From Moritella sp. 24 (GTDB taxonomy: Bacteria; Pseudomonadota; Gammaproteobacteria; Enterobacterales; Moritellaceae), in contig NZ_CP056123.1 in assembly GCF_018219155.1 (NCBI RefSeq), positions 558,001 through 622,000 of the forward strand: 64,000 bases of DNA. The letters are read 5' to 3'. Positions 28,252-51,082 of the stretch are shown here, in pieces (the first letter of the stretch is position 1; the number at the start of each line of letters is the position of its first letter). The position numbers and the translations under genes were made by a program. The notes below the pieces were generated by a model. That model did not search any database. It saw only the letters and a list, made by a program, of their open reading frames with translations, and was not told the DNA's origin.

Positions 28252-28443
28252 ATGCTAATATTGACGCGCCGTGTTGGCGAAACACTTATGATCGGTGATG
28301 AAGTTACAGTTACTGTATTAGGTGTTAAAGGTAATCAAGTTCGTATCGGTGTTAATGCGCCTAAAGAAGTATCTGTTCACCGTGAAGAGATCTACATGCG
28401 AATTCAAGCAGAAAAAGGCGAAAGCCCTGAAGGCAACTTCTAA
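28252..28443 (+). CDS. csrA: Carbon storage regulator CsrA
   Basis: Small RNA-binding global regulator that binds GGA motifs in mRNA leaders and is sequestered by CsrB-type RNAs. The ATG (AGGA box 8 nt upstream) gives 63 aa beginning [10 protein letters not shown]. The RNA-contact residues L4, R6 and R44 (VHREEI) are present. An in-frame TTG 15 bp earlier would remove the ribosome-binding site. The only GGA seen close to the start is in the Shine-Dalgarno itself, which could allow autoregulation. A large CsrB-like RNA lies elsewhere in this window. Confidence 0.98.
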
Positions 28444-28644: not shown

Positions 28645-28738
<94 letters not shown>

Positions 28739-28822
28739 GTTGTCCTAATATCTATCACATGTTGTAAAATGTGTTATAGTGTTTTGGTCGGCTTTTTGGA
28801 CGTTGTAAGAAATAGTTGTTGT

Positions 28823-28899
28823 GCGGATGTAGCTCAGCTGGATAGAGTACCTGGCTACGAACCAGGCGGTCGGAGGTTCGAATCCTCCCATCCGCACCA
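28823..28899 (+). tRNA. tRNA-Arg (anticodon ACG), copy 1
   Basis: A 77-nt cloverleaf with acceptor GCGGATG/CATCCGC, anticodon loop CTACGAA and encoded CCA. A34 should be edited to inosine to read CGU/CGC/CGA. It appears identical to the five copies that follow. Confidence 0.97.
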
Positions 28900-28988
28900 T
28901 TATTTCGATTAGAATTAATTCTAAGTAATTAGTAGAAGTTGAAAACACTTAATCTAGTTATAAAAATTATACGTTAGACCAAATATGT

Positions 28989-29065
28989 GCGGATGTAGCT
29001 CAGCTGGATAGAGTACCTGGCTACGAACCAGGCGGTCGGAGGTTCGAATCCTCCCATCCGCACCA
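28989..29065 (+). tRNA. tRNA-Arg (anticodon ACG), copy 2
   Basis: Same 77-nt sequence as copy 1. The spacer before it is 89 nt and unrelated to the other spacers. Confidence 0.97.
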
Positions 29066-29113
29066 TTGGTTTTAACACAACGTTTGCTCGGCAAACAACA
29101 GAATAAATTATGT

Positions 29114-29190
29114 GCGGATGTAGCTCAGCTGGATAGAGTACCTGGCTACGAACCAGGCGGTCGGAGGTTCGAATCCTCCCATCCGCACCA
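29114..29190 (+). tRNA. tRNA-Arg (anticodon ACG), copy 3
   Basis: Same sequence as copy 1, with a 48-nt spacer before it. Confidence 0.97.
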
Positions 29191-29259
29191 TTTATTCAAA
29201 TCACCTAGAGATTTAAAACTAGACGTTGTAGAACGTAAACCTAACAGAACAAATTATGT

Positions 29260-29336
29260 GCGGATGTAGCTCAGCTGGATAGAGTACCTGGCTACGAACC
29301 AGGCGGTCGGAGGTTCGAATCCTCCCATCCGCACCA
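29260..29336 (+). tRNA. tRNA-Arg (anticodon ACG), copy 4
   Basis: Same sequence as copy 1, with a 69-nt spacer before it. Confidence 0.97.
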
Positions 29337-29412
29337 TTTGTTCAAAACGATTAATTTTTATGGTTTAATTCGTTAAACGGTAAAATACAACAAGTTCTTA
29401 AAATAGAAATGT

Positions 29413-29489
29413 GCGGATGTAGCTCAGCTGGATAGAGTACCTGGCTACGAACCAGGCGGTCGGAGGTTCGAATCCTCCCATCCGCACCA
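29413..29489 (+). tRNA. tRNA-Arg (anticodon ACG), copy 5
   Basis: Same sequence as copy 1, with a 76-nt spacer before it. Confidence 0.97.
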
Positions 29490-29513
29490 TCTATTTTATA
29501 ATATAAATTTTGT

Positions 29514-29590
29514 GCGGATGTAGCTCAGCTGGATAGAGTACCTGGCTACGAACCAGGCGGTCGGAGGTTCGAATCCTCCCATCCGCACCA
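29514..29590 (+). tRNA. tRNA-Arg (anticodon ACG), copy 6
   Basis: Same sequence as copy 1, with a short AT-only 24-nt spacer before it. Confidence 0.97.
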
Positions 29591-29597
29591 TTTATTA

Positions 29598-29655
29598 TAT
29601 TATTATGAATTTTCCGATGTAAGTCTTTACATTGTCGATGTTTTTCATAATAATA
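29598..29655 (+). repeat. Long hairpin in the last tRNA spacer
   Basis: A perfect 12-bp inverted repeat (TATTATTATGAA and TTCATAATAATA) encloses a second possible stem ATGTAA/TTTACAT. It fills most of the spacer between the sixth tRNA-Arg and the second tRNA-Ser and may guide processing. No T-run follows. Confidence 0.5.
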
Positions 29656-29665
29656 GGGTTTGTGT

Positions 29666-29759
<94 letters not shown>

Positions 29760-34187: not shown

Positions 34188-35780
34188 TTGAACGTTACAT
34201 TTGAATCTCTGATCTCAAAATTATCAGAGCCAAGCAATATACAGTCACTAAACGGTATTACTCGCGGCATCGAACGTGAGTGTTTACGTGTTGATGAAGC
34301 CGGAGATTTATCTCAGAGCGATCACCCAGCAGCGTTTGGTTCGGCATTAAGTCATCAGCACATTACCACAGACTATTCTGAAAGCTTATTAGAGTTCATT
34401 ACGCCTGTTAGCGATAGTGCCGCAACAGCGCAACAGCAACTGAGTGATATTCATCGCCATGTAGCAAAAAATATGGACGGCGAGTTATTCTGGCCTTCAA
34501 GTATGCCTTGTCAGGTTAATGATGAAAACGATATACCGCTCGCTAAATACGGTACATCGAATACAGGAAAAATGAAGCATACATACCGTATTGGTTTAAA
34601 ACACCGTTATGGTAGTAGCATGCAGATCATTTCTGGCTTGCATTATAATGTGTCATTACCAATGGCATTGTGGCAAAAATTGTATGATATCAAAGGTGAA
34701 ACTGGCGAGTTACAAGACTTTATTTCTCATAGTTATATGGGATTGATCCGTAATTTCTATCGTTATGGTTGGTTAGTACCTTATTTATTTGGTGCATCAC
34801 CTGCGTTAAATCGTTCGTTTTTACCAGCAGAAAAGCAAGAATCATTCTCGTCATTAGGTGAGAGCACGATATACATGCCGTATGCAACATCGTTACGTAT
34901 GAGTGATTTGGGTTATACGAACAATGCGCAAGACGATTTGGTGATTTGTCATAATACGTTAGACAAATATACGAATAGTTTGAAAAAAGCAATTAAAAGC
35001 AAAGCGCCTGAATTTGCAGATATTGGCATTAAAGTTAATGGTGAATACCGTCAGCTCAATGACAATGTGCTGCAAATCGAAAATGAGTTGTATGCACCTA
35101 TTAGACCCAAACGTGTTGCTAAATCAAACGAAAAACCGTCTGAAGCACTTGCTGCGCGTGGTATCGAATATATTGAAATCCGTTCTTTAGATGTAAATCC
35201 ATTTACAGCTACGGGTATCACGACAGCACAGATGTCAGTATTAGATAGTTTGTTAGTTTGGATGGCATTACAACCATCTGCACCGATGACTGCTGATGAA
35301 ATGGCGGTATGCCGTGATAACAGCACGAAAGTGGTGATGGAAGGGCGTAAGCCTGGTTTAACATTAATGTTAGATGATAAGCCTCAATCTCTGACTGATG
35401 TAGCGACTCATATCCTTGCTGAAGTTCAGCAGGTTGCACAGTTATTAGATGGTGCTCAGTTAGCGACAAATACAGCTGCGAGTAATTTCGCTGACGCTGT
35501 TTGTGCTCAACAAGCATTAATTAATAACCCTGATGCACTATTGTCAGGTCAGGTGCTCGCTACAATGAAAGAGCAAGGTTTGGAGCATAATGATTTCATT
35601 TTAAATTTAGCAAATAAATATAAGAAGGAATTGATTGCGACAGACTATGAGCATTGGGATGATGTTTACTTCAACCAGATGCAACGTGACTCAGTCGCAG
35701 AGCAACAAAAAATTGAAGCTGCTGATACCGTCGATTTCGATGCGTTTTTAGCTGACTATTTTTCTAATATTAAAAAATAG
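34188..35780 (+). CDS. gshA: Glutamate-cysteine ligase
   Basis: First step of glutathione synthesis, joining glutamate and cysteine. The 530-aa protein matches the gammaproteobacterial GshA type throughout, including GIERECLRV near the N-terminus, HYNVSLPMALW, and ENELYAPIRPKR. The start is TTG with a weak GGTGG upstream, and no ATG is near. No plus-strand terminator follows. The gene runs into a pair of minus-strand RNA candidates before luxS. Confidence 0.96.
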   Translation: MNVTFESLISKLSEPSNIQSLNGITRGIERECLRVDEAGDLSQSDHPAAFGSALSHQHITTDYSESLLEFITPVSDSAATAQQQLSDIHRHVAKNMDGELFWPSSMPCQVNDENDIPLAKYGTSNTGKMKHTYRIGLKHRYGSSMQIISGLHYNVSLPMALWQKLYDIKGETGELQDFISHSYMGLIRNFYRYGWLVPYLFGASPALNRSFLPAEKQESFSSLGESTIYMPYATSLRMSDLGYTNNAQDDLVICHNTLDKYTNSLKKAIKSKAPEFADIGIKVNGEYRQLNDNVLQIENELYAPIRPKRVAKSNEKPSEALAARGIEYIEIRSLDVNPFTATGITTAQMSVLDSLLVWMALQPSAPMTADEMAVCRDNSTKVVMEGRKPGLTLMLDDKPQSLTDVATHILAEVQQVAQLLDGAQLATNTAASNFADAVCAQQALINNPDALLSGQVLATMKEQGLEHNDFILNLANKYKKELIATDYEHWDDVYFNQMQRDSVAEQQKIEAADTVDFDAFLADYFSNIKK

Positions 35781-35782
35781 AC

Positions 35783-35868
35783 AAAAAAAAAGAGCCCAAA
35801 TAAGGCTCCAAAAAATGAAAAAACAACTCTTGCAATGAATCAGACTACTAGATTGAAGTATGGTTCAT
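35783..35868 (-). ncRNA. Candidate small RNA A (gshA side of a tandem pair)
   Basis: On the minus strand this element runs from ATGAACCAT through a variable hairpin region, a conserved GCAAGAGTTGTTTTTTC segment and a U-rich tract to the stem GAGCC/GGCTC and nine T residues, a typical Hfq-type layout. It is about 80% identical to the next element 114 bp away. Its own promoter is weak (TTACAA as -10, no good -35), so it may depend on read-through from copy B. The 5' end is estimated. It also contains a 6-codon frame (ATG AAC CAT ACT TCA ATC TAG). Confidence 0.5.
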
Positions 35869-35896
35869 AAATATTTGTAAAAGTTGAAAAAGAGAT

Positions 35897-35982
35897 AAAA
35901 AAAAGGAGCCTTAATAGGGCTCCCAAAAAATGAAAAAACAACTCTTGCACTTAATCTGACTACAGCATTAAGCAATGGTTCA
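35897..35982 (-). ncRNA. Candidate small RNA B (luxS side of a tandem pair)
   Basis: Minus-strand element paralogous to copy A. It begins ATGAACCAT, has a hairpin CTTAAT/ATTAAG around a conserved TAGTC loop, then GCAAGAGTTGTTTTTTC, a U-rich tract and a terminator (GGAGCC/GGCTCC plus eight T residues). A good promoter lies upstream on the minus strand: TTGAAA (complement of 36010-36015), 16 bp, TAATAA (complement of 35988-35993), inside the luxS leader. No known RNA family was recognised. Transcription is inferred, not shown. Confidence 0.58.
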
Positions 35983-36028
35983 TAAAATTATTATTTGTTT
36001 ACTAAATTATTTCAACGGAGTGTTAATA

Positions 36029-47288: not shown

Positions 47289-48317
47289 TTACTGTTTAGC
47301 TAACTTATTTATCACTTCATCAGCTTCAGAGATAATTCGTTCAACGATAACGGCCACGCTTGGCACATCATTAATCAGTCCTTGTGATTGACCAATAAAT
47401 TGCACCCCAGTAGTTAAATCCCCATTGATGGTCGCGGCCTCAAGCTTTTCAGTTGCAGCACCGAAGTAAGACAATTGTTTTATCTTATCGAACTGTATAA
47501 AAACACCGGCTGCTAATTTCCAGAAGGGTAAATCAACCATTTTTGCAGCTTTCACTGACTTGAGTAATGCTAAAACAAAATTCATTGGTTTTTTTGTTGC
47601 TTTGATTGAGGCTGGTGTTTTAAGTACACGAGCATGAAGACCATCAAAGTTTTTAGAATAGATAGTATCGTTTTCTGATTTACTGGTGATCACTTGCTTA
47701 ACGTCATTGTGTAATGCACTTTCTTGGCTTGTCGCAAAGCGAGACCCCATGGCTACAGCATCAGCGCCTAAAGAGAGTGCGGCGACTAGCCCGCGTCCAT
47801 CGGCAAAACCACCAGTTGCAATAACGGGAATATCGACAGCTCTCGCAATGGCTGGTACAAGCACAAGTGAGGTAACGTCTCCGCCGTGTGCAGCTGCTTC
47901 ATGGCCTGTTACCATCAAGGCATCAGCGCCAACTGCCTGTGCTGATTTAGCATGCTTTTCATTGACGACAGTGGCAATCACCTTGCCACCGTAAGCATGT
48001 ACCTGTTCAACGATCCAATCACCTTTACCTAATGAAAAGTTAATCACAGGTACTTGTTCTTCAATTCCGACCTTTGCATTCTCTTTTGCACCCGGCATTA
48101 GTAGTGTTGCACCAATACCAAATGGTTTATCTGTTAGTTCACGGATCTTTTTAATTGAAGCTCGGGTTTCTTCTTGGCTTAGAGGGCCTGTTGCAAGAAT
48201 ACCTAAACCACCGGCATTTGAAACGGCAGCAACTAGTTCTGGTTTTGATATCCAGCTCATACCAGGTAAGACAATAGGGTGCTCAATGCCTAATAATTCT
48301 GTAATCCGTGTTTTCAT
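47289..48317 (-). CDS. FMN-dependent nitronate monooxygenase/FabK-like oxidoreductase
   Basis: A 342-aa TIM-barrel flavoprotein. PIVLPGMSWIS, the glycine-rich ATGGFADGRG loop and GADAVAMGSRF phosphate-binding region are typical of nitronate monooxygenases and FabK enoyl-ACP reductases, which cannot be separated confidently here. The histidine in TGHEAAAHGGD suits both. The start MKTRITELLG is chosen by family fit. A Met seven codons earlier lacks a ribosome-binding site. Confidence 0.85.
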   Translation of the reverse strand: MKTRITELLGIEHPIVLPGMSWISKPELVAAVSNAGGLGILATGPLSQEETRASIKKIRELTDKPFGIGATLLMPGAKENAKVGIEEQVPVINFSLGKGDWIVEQVHAYGGKVIATVVNEKHAKSAQAVGADALMVTGHEAAAHGGDVTSLVLVPAIARAVDIPVIATGGFADGRGLVAALSLGADAVAMGSRFATSQESALHNDVKQVITSKSENDTIYSKNFDGLHARVLKTPASIKATKKPMNFVLALLKSVKAAKMVDLPFWKLAAGVFIQFDKIKQLSYFGAATEKLEAATINGDLTTGVQFIGQSQGLINDVPSVAVIVERIISEADEVINKLAKQ

Positions 48318-48512
48318 CACTTTATCCCAAAGATGCAAGAAGGTTGGAAAAATAAACTAGCATAAATACACTAATACATACAGATGTTAATGGTATGTTT
48401 ATTTTTAACAAAATTATTTATCGTAAAATTTTAACGATCACAACTTTAGTTTGGGTATATTCTGTGTATTTTTTATCCACCATATTATCTACTACGGAAC
48501 CCCAATTTCACG

Positions 48513-48720
48513 TGTAAGACATCGACTATTGAGGTGTCGGGATATAGTCGTTACGTACCTATGCTTATCTCGATATCGTGCCTAGTCTTACACTCTTAAA
48601 TATATTGTATACTCATAATTATCAATGGCTTATGTATGTGGTCGTTTTATTCTTTGTAAAATTATGTAATTTAATCATTTTTTCGCGGTTGTTGATCAGC
48701 ATTATTAACGTATATTTATA
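48513..48720 (+). promoter_or_regulatory. Putative control region of the CsrB-like RNA
   Basis: TGTAAG (48513-48518) and CTTACA (48587-48592) are inverted half-sites of the GacA/UvrY box TGTAAG-N6-CTTACA, though neither has a good second half beside it. TATCAATGGCTTA (48620-48632) fits the full IHF consensus WATCAANNNNTTR. TTGATC (48692-48697) with an AT-rich -10 around TTTATA (48715-48720, 17-bp spacing) makes a plausible promoter. The same order is known for csrB/rsm promoters. Confidence 0.55.
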
Positions 48721-48724
48721 AGCA

Positions 48725-49571
48725 CAAGGACGAGGCGGGAACATCTTCAGGAAGAAGACCAAAGGATTAAGTTGCAGGACGCGACACAAGGACAGCTTCA
48801 GGAAGAAGACTAAAGGATTAAGTTGCAGGATGCGACACAAGGACAGCTTCAGGAAGAAGACCAAAGGATTAAGTTGCAGGATGCGACACAAGGAACATCT
48901 TCAGGAAGAAGACTAAAGGATTAAGTTGCAGGATGCGACACAAGGAACATCTTCAGGAAGAAGACTAAAGGATTAAGTTGCAGGACGCGACACAAGGACA
49001 GCTTCAGGAAGAAGACTAAAGGATTAAGTTGCAGGACGCGACACAAGGACAGCTTCAGGAAGAAGACTAAAGGATTAAGTTGCAGGACGCGAGACAAGGA
49101 CAGCTTCAGGAAGAAGACTAAAGGATTAAGTTGCAGGAGGCGACACAAGGACAGCTTCAGGAAGAAGACCAAAGGATTAAGTTGCAGGACGCGACAACAA
49201 GGACAGCTTCAGGAAGAAGACCAAAGGATTAAGTTGCAGGACGCGACACAAGGACAGCTTCAGGAAGAAGACCAAAGGATTAAGTTGCAGGACGCGACAC
49301 AAGGAACATCTTCAGGAAGAAGATTAAAGGATTAAGTTGCAGGATGCGACACAAGGACAGCTTCAGGAAGAAGACCAAAGGATTATGTTATAGGATGTAA
49401 CACAGAAATAAATCAGGATCGATTTGTTGTGCTAGGAAGGCAAAAGGACACTCCGACGGATTGGGAAGTGGAAATTTAACGGAATAAATAGAGTCAGGAT
49501 TTAGCAGGGTTGCTACAAGTTTCACGGATTGAAAGTATAGACTTTAGGGCGGCACAGTGTGCCGCCTTTTC
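48725..49571 (+). ncRNA. csrB: Giant CsrB-family RNA with 13 tandem units
   Basis: Predicted regulatory RNA of about 850 nt that would bind and titrate CsrA. Thirteen head-to-tail units of 51-52 nt begin near 48745 and end near 49400. Each has GGA in four contexts: CAAGGA (unpaired), CTTC-AGGAA-GAAG (hairpin loop), AAAGGATT (unpaired) and GTTGC-AGGAY-GCGAC (hairpin loop). A tail follows with more GGA hairpins (AAATC-AGGATC-GATTT, TGCT-AGGAA-GGCA) and then the terminator GGCGGCAC/GTGCCGCC plus TTTT at 49548-49570. By eye there are about 62 GGA. E. coli CsrB has about 20 in 370 nt. The 5' end is estimated from the promoter. Confidence 0.88.
48745..49411 (+). repeat. Tandem 51-52 bp repeat array within the CsrB-like RNA
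   Basis: The CTTCAGG anchors fall at 48745, 48796, 48847, 48899, 48951, 49002, 49053, 49104, 49155, 49207, 49258, 49310 and 49361. Spacing is 51 bp, or 52 where an extra A is present. Variation is confined to a few positions (ACATCTTC or CAGCTTC, GGAC/GGAT/GGAG, GACC/GACT). The last unit is diverged but keeps its hairpin. There are no spacers, so it is not a CRISPR array. Confidence 0.95.
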
Positions 49572-49711
49572 TATATCTGGAATTTAATAAATCGTTTATT
49601 TTGGCGTTCTGCCTACGACATCTCCCATTATTGATACTTCTTATTAGCCTATACATGACAGAATTCATTGTATGTTTAGCTTTATAACTAACCTCAGATC
49701 GTTAGCCATTA

Positions 49712-49816: not shown

Positions 49817-51082
49817 CTATTTACTTTTAGACTTATTCTTCTTGATACGTTTCTTAGCTTTAAGTTTCGCTTTTGCTGATGCTTTATTTTTACCAGTTGC
49901 GGCTACTTTTGCTTTTTTCTTCGTTTTCGATACTGCAATTTTATTGTTTGGTTTCAAACCTTGAATTACACGACGTTTAATCGTTTCTTCAGTGTAACGT
50001 TCGATTTTACCAAAAATACGTAGATCATGCGCTTCAACTAATGAAATTGCTGTACCTTTTTTACCAGCACGTGCAGTACGACCAATACGGTGAACATACA
50101 CTTCAGCACTACGTGGTAAATCAAAGTTAAATACGTGACTTACATCCTGAACGTCAATACCGCGAGCGGCAACGTCAGTAGCAATCAGTACTTTTACTTT
50201 ATCGTTTTTAAATTGATTTAATGAACGAGTACGTTTTGCTTGATCCATCTCACCACGTAAATAAGCACACGGGATACCCTGAGATTGTAAGTAGCTAACT
50301 AAGTCAGCTAAACGTTCACGGGTTTTTACAAACACGATAGAACGAGTTGTGCTCTCATCACGTAACCAGTGCACTAGCAAAGCTTGCTTGTGTGCGTGGT
50401 CATCAACGTAATGCATGAATTGATGAATTTTTGCTTTTTCTTTACGTGAAGGATTCGCTGTAAATTCAGCTGGCTCTTTCAATAGTTCTTCAGCAAAACG
50501 CTCAATACCACGACCTTCTAGGGTTGCAGAAAATAGCATTGTTTGTTGACGACGAGTCATTTCATCAGTGATTTTTTTCACGTCTTCATAGAAGCCCATA
50601 TCTAACATACGGTCGGCTTCGTCTAAGATTAGTACTTCAACGGCTGCACATTCAAATGCATCACGACGGATGTATTCTAGTAAGCGACCTGGTGTAGCAA
50701 TGACAATATCAAGGCTATTTTTTAGTACTTCAGCGTGTAGTGCGTAATCAACACCACCCGTTACCATCGATACTTTATGATCAGTATAGGCAGCTAGCAT
50801 TTTAGCTTGTTGGAATACTTGACTCGCGAGTTCTCGCGTTGGCGTCAAAATCAGTACTCGTCCAGGACCTAATTCACGACGTGGAAAGTCAAGCAGATGC
50901 TGAACAGCTGGTAATAAAAACGCCAGCGTTTTACCTGTACCTGTCGGTGCAGATGCAAGGATATCTCTACCTTCCATGGCAGTTGGCAATACTTGCTGTT
51001 GAATCAATGTTGGTTGAACAAGATTATTATCAGTAAGTGCTGCAATTAATTCAGGGTCTAGATCGAGACTTTCGAAGTCCAT
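49817..51082 (-). CDS. srmB: DEAD-box RNA helicase SrmB
   Basis: ATP-dependent RNA helicase that aids 50S ribosome assembly. The 421-aa protein has motif I APTGTGKT at 45-52, LDEADRMLDMGF, SATLEG and HRIGRTARAG. A lysine-rich C-terminal tail suits RNA binding. The DFPRRELGP and EGRGIERFAEELL segments match SrmB better than other DEAD proteins. It lies close to trmN6, as in enterobacteria and vibrios. Confidence 0.93.
   Translation of the reverse strand: MDFESLDLDPELIAALTDNNLVQPTLIQQQVLPTAMEGRDILASAPTGTGKTLAFLLPAVQHLLDFPRRELGPGRVLILTPTRELASQVFQQAKMLAAYTDHKVSMVTGGVDYALHAEVLKNSLDIVIATPGRLLEYIRRDAFECAAVEVLILDEADRMLDMGFYEDVKKITDEMTRRQQTMLFSATLEGRGIERFAEELLKEPAEFTANPSRKEKAKIHQFMHYVDDHAHKQALLVHWLRDESTTRSIVFVKTRERLADLVSYLQSQGIPCAYLRGEMDQAKRTRSLNQFKNDKVKVLIATDVAARGIDVQDVSHVFNFDLPRSAEVYVHRIGRTARAGKKGTAISLVEAHDLRIFGKIERYTEETIKRRVIQGLKPNNKIAVSKTKKKAKVAATGKNKASAKAKLKAKKRIKKNKSKSK

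Follow-up and report, generated by a model that had tools for sequence, protein, structure and literature searches.

A predicted, unusually expanded CsrB-family RNA gene conserved in Moritella

The array locus

Moritella are cold-loving, marine bacteria. The stretch of Moritella sp. 24 DNA analysed here (64,000 nt; hereafter the window) carries a tandem array dense in GGA motifs, set between a divergent flavoprotein gene and a convergent helicase gene. The features referred to below are these:

28252-28443, plus strand: csrA, open reading frame
47289-48338, minus strand: FabK / nitronate monooxygenase-like flavoprotein, divergent neighbour; open reading frame whose best NCBIfam match, FabK, is below cut-off
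48513-48529, plus strand: UvrY/GacA-type half-site TGTAAGACATCGACTAT, about 200 nt before the start of the RNA
48583-48592, plus strand: inverted half-site TAGTCTTACA, which matches the CTTACA half-site of the UvrY box and changes little from one Moritella to another
48708-48732, plus strand: -10/start block ACGTATATTTATAAGCACAAGGACG, near invariant in 15 Moritella loci
48724-49571, plus strand: predicted CsrB-family RNA, about 848 nt, 62 GGA
48745-49401, plus strand: tandem array made up of 12 complete 51-52-nt units and part of a 13th (TRF, unit splitting, local folding)
49402-49545, plus strand: unique 3' domain that shares homology with one of the genome's ordinary csrB genes
49546-49571, plus strand: intrinsic terminator AGGGCGGCACAGTGTGCCGCCTTTTC, pairing kept in relatives
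49817-51082, minus strand: srmB (DEAD-box RNA helicase), convergent neighbour; NCBIfam SrmB, 646 bits against a cut-off of 507

A motif count on the plus strand of 48725-49571 gave 62 GGAs, the figure of about 62 in about 850 nt reached in a preliminary description of this DNA; the mean for sliding segments of 847 nt over the same 64 kb is 6.9 on the plus strand and 5.2 on the minus. TRF places the array at 48741-49389, with a period of 51, 12.6 copies and 95% matches. Each unit contains four GGAs and runs from hairpin A (CTTC-AGGAA-GAAG) through a GGA linker with AAAGGATTAA to hairpin B (GTTGC-AGGAY-GCGAC) and a final GGA linker, ACAAGGACAG. The 26 loop hairpins of two types described earlier are all present as cores, and the 13 of type A are exact, but only 10 of the 13 type B hairpins fit the sequence given for them: one has the loop AGGAG, one lacks the outer pair (GCGAG), and the last reads GTTAT-AGGAT-GTAAC. 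Elsewhere in the window, at 35773-35986, a 115-nt sequence is repeated in 1.9 copies with 85% match.

Local folding (span 40) left 60 of the 62 GGAs mostly unpaired and gave a mean pair probability above 0.7 in 25 of the 26 hairpins, the exception being the GCGAG hairpin at 0.48; the alternation of GGAs between hairpin loops and linkers, claimed as CsrB-type architecture, is thus borne out. Under global folding 50 GGAs were still mostly unpaired, with arms pairing across units. Because the hairpin arms are identical between units, partners are mixed in this fold, and the 26 hairpins therefore need not all form simultaneously. The fold of the whole 848-nt RNA has z = -4.3, from 20 shuffles only.

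The extent of the RNA was set by the conserved promoter block at its start and the terminator at its end. The latter, which had been said to close the array RNA, was located as a stem-loop at 49546-49568, and paired changes in relatives preserve its pairing (for example GGCGACACA/TGTGTCGCC). The terminator scan found no terminator-like site inside the array. Two other readings of the repeats were tried and rejected: a CRISPR-like array, the units being contiguous and without spacers, and coding repeats, no frame on either strand being open across loci.

Upstream elements and the Csr circuit

All 15 Moritella array genes for which upstream sequence was available have the TGTAAGACATCGACTAT-type half-site at -215, counted from the first GGA. 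Elements of 17 nt resembling TGTAAGAGATCGACTAT also precede many CsrB genes of other genera near -200, most of the other CsrB loci analysed have similar ones between -154 and -221, and the E. coli element TGTGAGAGATCTCTTACA falls at -199 on the same scale. This last is the UvrY inverted repeat, centred at -183/-182 and bound in experiments (PMC4682653). The Moritella box is a far-upstream site of UvrY/GacA type, not closely palindromic, with one half well kept and the other weak; the inverted element TAGTCTTACA, about 70 nt downstream of the first half-site, presumably acts as the second. A generic sigma-70 scan called no plus-strand promoter at the ACGTATATTTATAAGCACAAGGACG block.

The genome encodes a single csrA (PF02599, E 6.6e-25, one match; NCBIfam CsrA above cut-off). 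Its position some 20 kb from the array had been pointed out; the gene is indeed there, starting at 28252, but the distance is uninformative and is not evidence of linkage. Full-length UvrY (74% identical to that of E. coli) and BarA (48%) are also encoded, giving the host both CsrA and BarA/UvrY, and a CsrD-like protein with 32% identity over residues 143-627 indicates that csrD is probably present. Just downstream of csrA, at 28645-29757, six near-identical tRNA-Arg(ACG) genes are flanked on either side by a tRNA-Ser(GCT) gene. The srmB gene, whose product influences expression of csrB/C in E. coli, is convergent to the array gene here; this adjacency may be coincidence, because E. coli srmB also adjoins trmN (yfiC).

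CsrB-family membership and origin of the unit

A search with the Rfam CsrB model (RF00018), proposed beforehand as a check, gave 81.1 bits for this locus against a gathering score of 71, with 49238-49576 matching the full model (1-356). The same model was also applied to 296 genomes, with no more than five candidates scored in each. In the literature searched, no paper names both Moritella and CsrB.

Besides the array, the same genome has two ordinary csrB genes 1.6 kb apart (C1:87774 and 89368), which makes three CsrB loci in all. The ordinary pair share the upstream element with the array gene, and csrB-1 also has a counterpart of its 3' domain and a segment resembling hairpin A; they differ from it in being about 320 nt long, with 21 and 17 GGAs and no array. 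Local alignment of the array gene's 3' domain with csrB-1 scored 64, against a mean of 19 and a maximum of 32 in 300 shuffles. The array unit scored 30 against the csrB-1 hairpin segment, a value reached in none of 500 shuffles (maximum 28); the unit is likely to derive from a csrB-1-like hairpin segment, though less firmly than the 3' domains are homologous.

On the evidence of the Rfam score, the csrB-homologous 3' domain and the UvrY-type element, which back the original assignment to CsrB-type RNAs, we take the locus to be a CsrB-family gene in a conserved, unusually expanded form. At about 848 nt its RNA is outside the typical, non-defining CsrB size of about 350-420 nt. Taken whole, the best explanation, which we hold with high confidence, is an RNA of the CsrB family, about 848 nt long, whose transcription would start at a promoter activated by UvrY and stop at the intrinsic terminator, and whose GGA hairpin loops and linkers would bind many CsrA dimers and so keep them from mRNA targets. 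The gene would go back to an ordinary csrB in which a segment with two hairpins was duplicated in tandem. That the locus is transcribed, that its RNA binds CsrA and that added units raise titration per RNA we infer from these features.

Variation within Moritella

The array locus is present in 11/11 Moritella species genomes, with a contig ending in or at it in three. Among complete genes the unit number runs from 3 to 13 and the GGA count from 22 to 62. This comparison of related genomes had been recommended in the preliminary description, and the variation in unit number between species agrees with its proposal of growth by unit duplication. Genes of normal size (a 287-nt GGA run) occupy the same locus in other Moritella, and a neighbouring protein is 93-94% identical at four Moritella loci. 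In some Moritella two tandem array genes lie about 500 nt apart, each with promoter block and terminator; such whole-gene duplications were seen in several species (loci L042, L043, L045, L046 and L047).

The four GGAs are kept in 91/91 complete internal units, which comprise 46 distinct sequences. Departures from consensus amount to 1.5% in stems, 1.8% at GGA positions, nearly all of these an artefact of gap placement, and 9.1% at other positions. In stem B, GUUGC/GCGAC is replaced by the compensatory GUUAC/GUAAC in 12/106 units, with G-U intermediates. As the units are related and so not independent of one another, neither this count nor the 91/91 can be used as a probability. The hairpin A stem barely varies, so that the support from covariation is confined to hairpin B and the terminator.

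CsrA capacity and alternative explanations

In the known mode of action of CsrB, two GGA sites can be bridged by a single CsrA dimer if they lie 10-63 nt apart (PMC7652899). Successive hairpin loops in the array are 25-26 nt apart, within the bridging range, so that by arithmetic the full array could have room for several times as many dimers as E. coli CsrB, and one array RNA may soak up far more CsrA than usual. This capacity claim is disputed, and the compatible assignment to the CsrB family left untouched, if unit number is neutral, drifting by slippage or unequal crossing-over where one to three units suffice, an explanation to which we give a little less than an even chance. The range of 3 to 13 units between species speaks for it, and units are more alike within a locus (95.2% identity) than between loci (92.7%; 0/2000 permutations), as expected under ongoing turnover by duplication and loss. 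It accounts less well for the absence of GGA loss from any internal unit, or for the finding that the shortest complete genes (22-26 GGA) were all in genomes that carry a second tandem gene; in what is a small sample, GGA totals per complete locus are 46-62 with one gene (four genomes) and 45-78 with two. Selection might instead keep the CsrA-site total at the locus in a high band, through added 51-nt units or gene duplication, a proposal we make tentatively and think somewhat improbable. Were it true, Moritella would tune CsrA titration by repeat number, and the array would be a protein sponge evolving by copy number.

An RNA of 848 nt might also fail to accumulate as a sponge if the transcript were cut or terminated early to give shorter RNAs. 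Shewanella csrB2 yields several transcript sizes (PMC3171408), and the repeated linkers might be cut repeatedly; the lack of terminator-like sites within the array speaks against early termination, and we consider this outcome unlikely. It is less likely still that the exact unit number is partly an artefact of assembly: several Moritella drafts do break inside or at the array, but the assembly that includes the window consists of 3 contigs, its 12 full units comprise 10 distinct sequences, and other near-complete Moritella genomes have 9-11 units. Hardly credible is a minisatellite or repeat-protein gene with no CsrA connection, for which antisense open reading frames of 83-89 aa crossing the repeats could be cited; units of 49-52 nt mix the frames, none of which is open across loci, and the Rfam, promoter and terminator evidence contradicts it.

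Comparison with other CsrB-type RNAs

CsrB-type RNAs act through the many protein sites they carry, but the relation of site number to titration strength is hard to study in the irregular natural ones. In the predicted sponge RNA gene described here, nearly identical units numbering 3 to 13 form a natural series within one genus, on a common promoter, 3' domain and terminator. The series would allow a direct test of how the number of sites relates to co-operative binding of CsrA and to RNA decay, and it illustrates growth of a sponge RNA through segment duplication.

We searched 395 genomes from the order and 369 from the class for arrays, defined as three CAGGAHG motifs within about 95 nt, a pattern that also picks up noise from GC-rich coding genes. 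In the order, Moritella came out on top with up to 40 overlapping matches, the best others having about 15. In the class, many matches fell in a few genomes (G750, G574), those listed for G750 being short repeats of about 20 nt. At G750:C5:15224-15585, in a 2 Mb gammaproteobacterial genome, TCAGGATGACA-type repeats of this length run head to tail, on both strands; similar ones in G508 and G743 are, like these, probably unrelated to CsrB.

The unusual size noted at the outset stood up to comparison: the window copy is the largest among about 45 CsrB-type genes measured, other genera reaching 44 GGA, though the comparison loci show an upper range because they were chosen as GGA-rich-looking. Enlarged CsrB-type RNAs with 30-44 GGAs occur in families f25, f11 and f6 of the same order, among them up to 42 GGAs over 512 nt in f25 genomes and 44 over 634 nt in one f11 genome, where a block of 133 nt is repeated. 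Some are internally duplicated (133 nt x2, 85 nt x2.3, 51 nt x3.8), with repeats fewer and less uniform than those of Moritella. The last of these, a CsrB-like GGA-rich locus in an f6 genome (L085, 574-766), has 3.8 copies of a different 51-nt unit, apparently an independent expansion with the same period; judged from these sequences, segment duplication in CsrB-type genes has apparently occurred more than once. Since other members of the order have CsrB RNAs carrying 38-44 GGAs, Moritella represents the end of a range and not a separate class.

E. coli CsrB (Rfam RF00018) resembles the array RNA in its GGAs in hairpin loops and linkers, its CAGGA(U/A/C)G motif, its UvrY site about 200 nt upstream and its intrinsic terminator. 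It differs in being 369 nt long and without a tandem array, with 22 GGAs in a 329-nt run against 62 in 801 nt, and 9 exact CAGGA(A/C/T)G motifs in csrB against 24 in the window RNA. Pf1, Pf2 and Pf3 of Pseudoalteromonas, in which CsrA binding has been shown, are likewise Csr RNAs of a cold-adapted marine bacterium, with 25 (21 in the earlier paper), 21 and 9 GGAs, respectively (PMC11882849, PMC9927453), against the 62 of Moritella.
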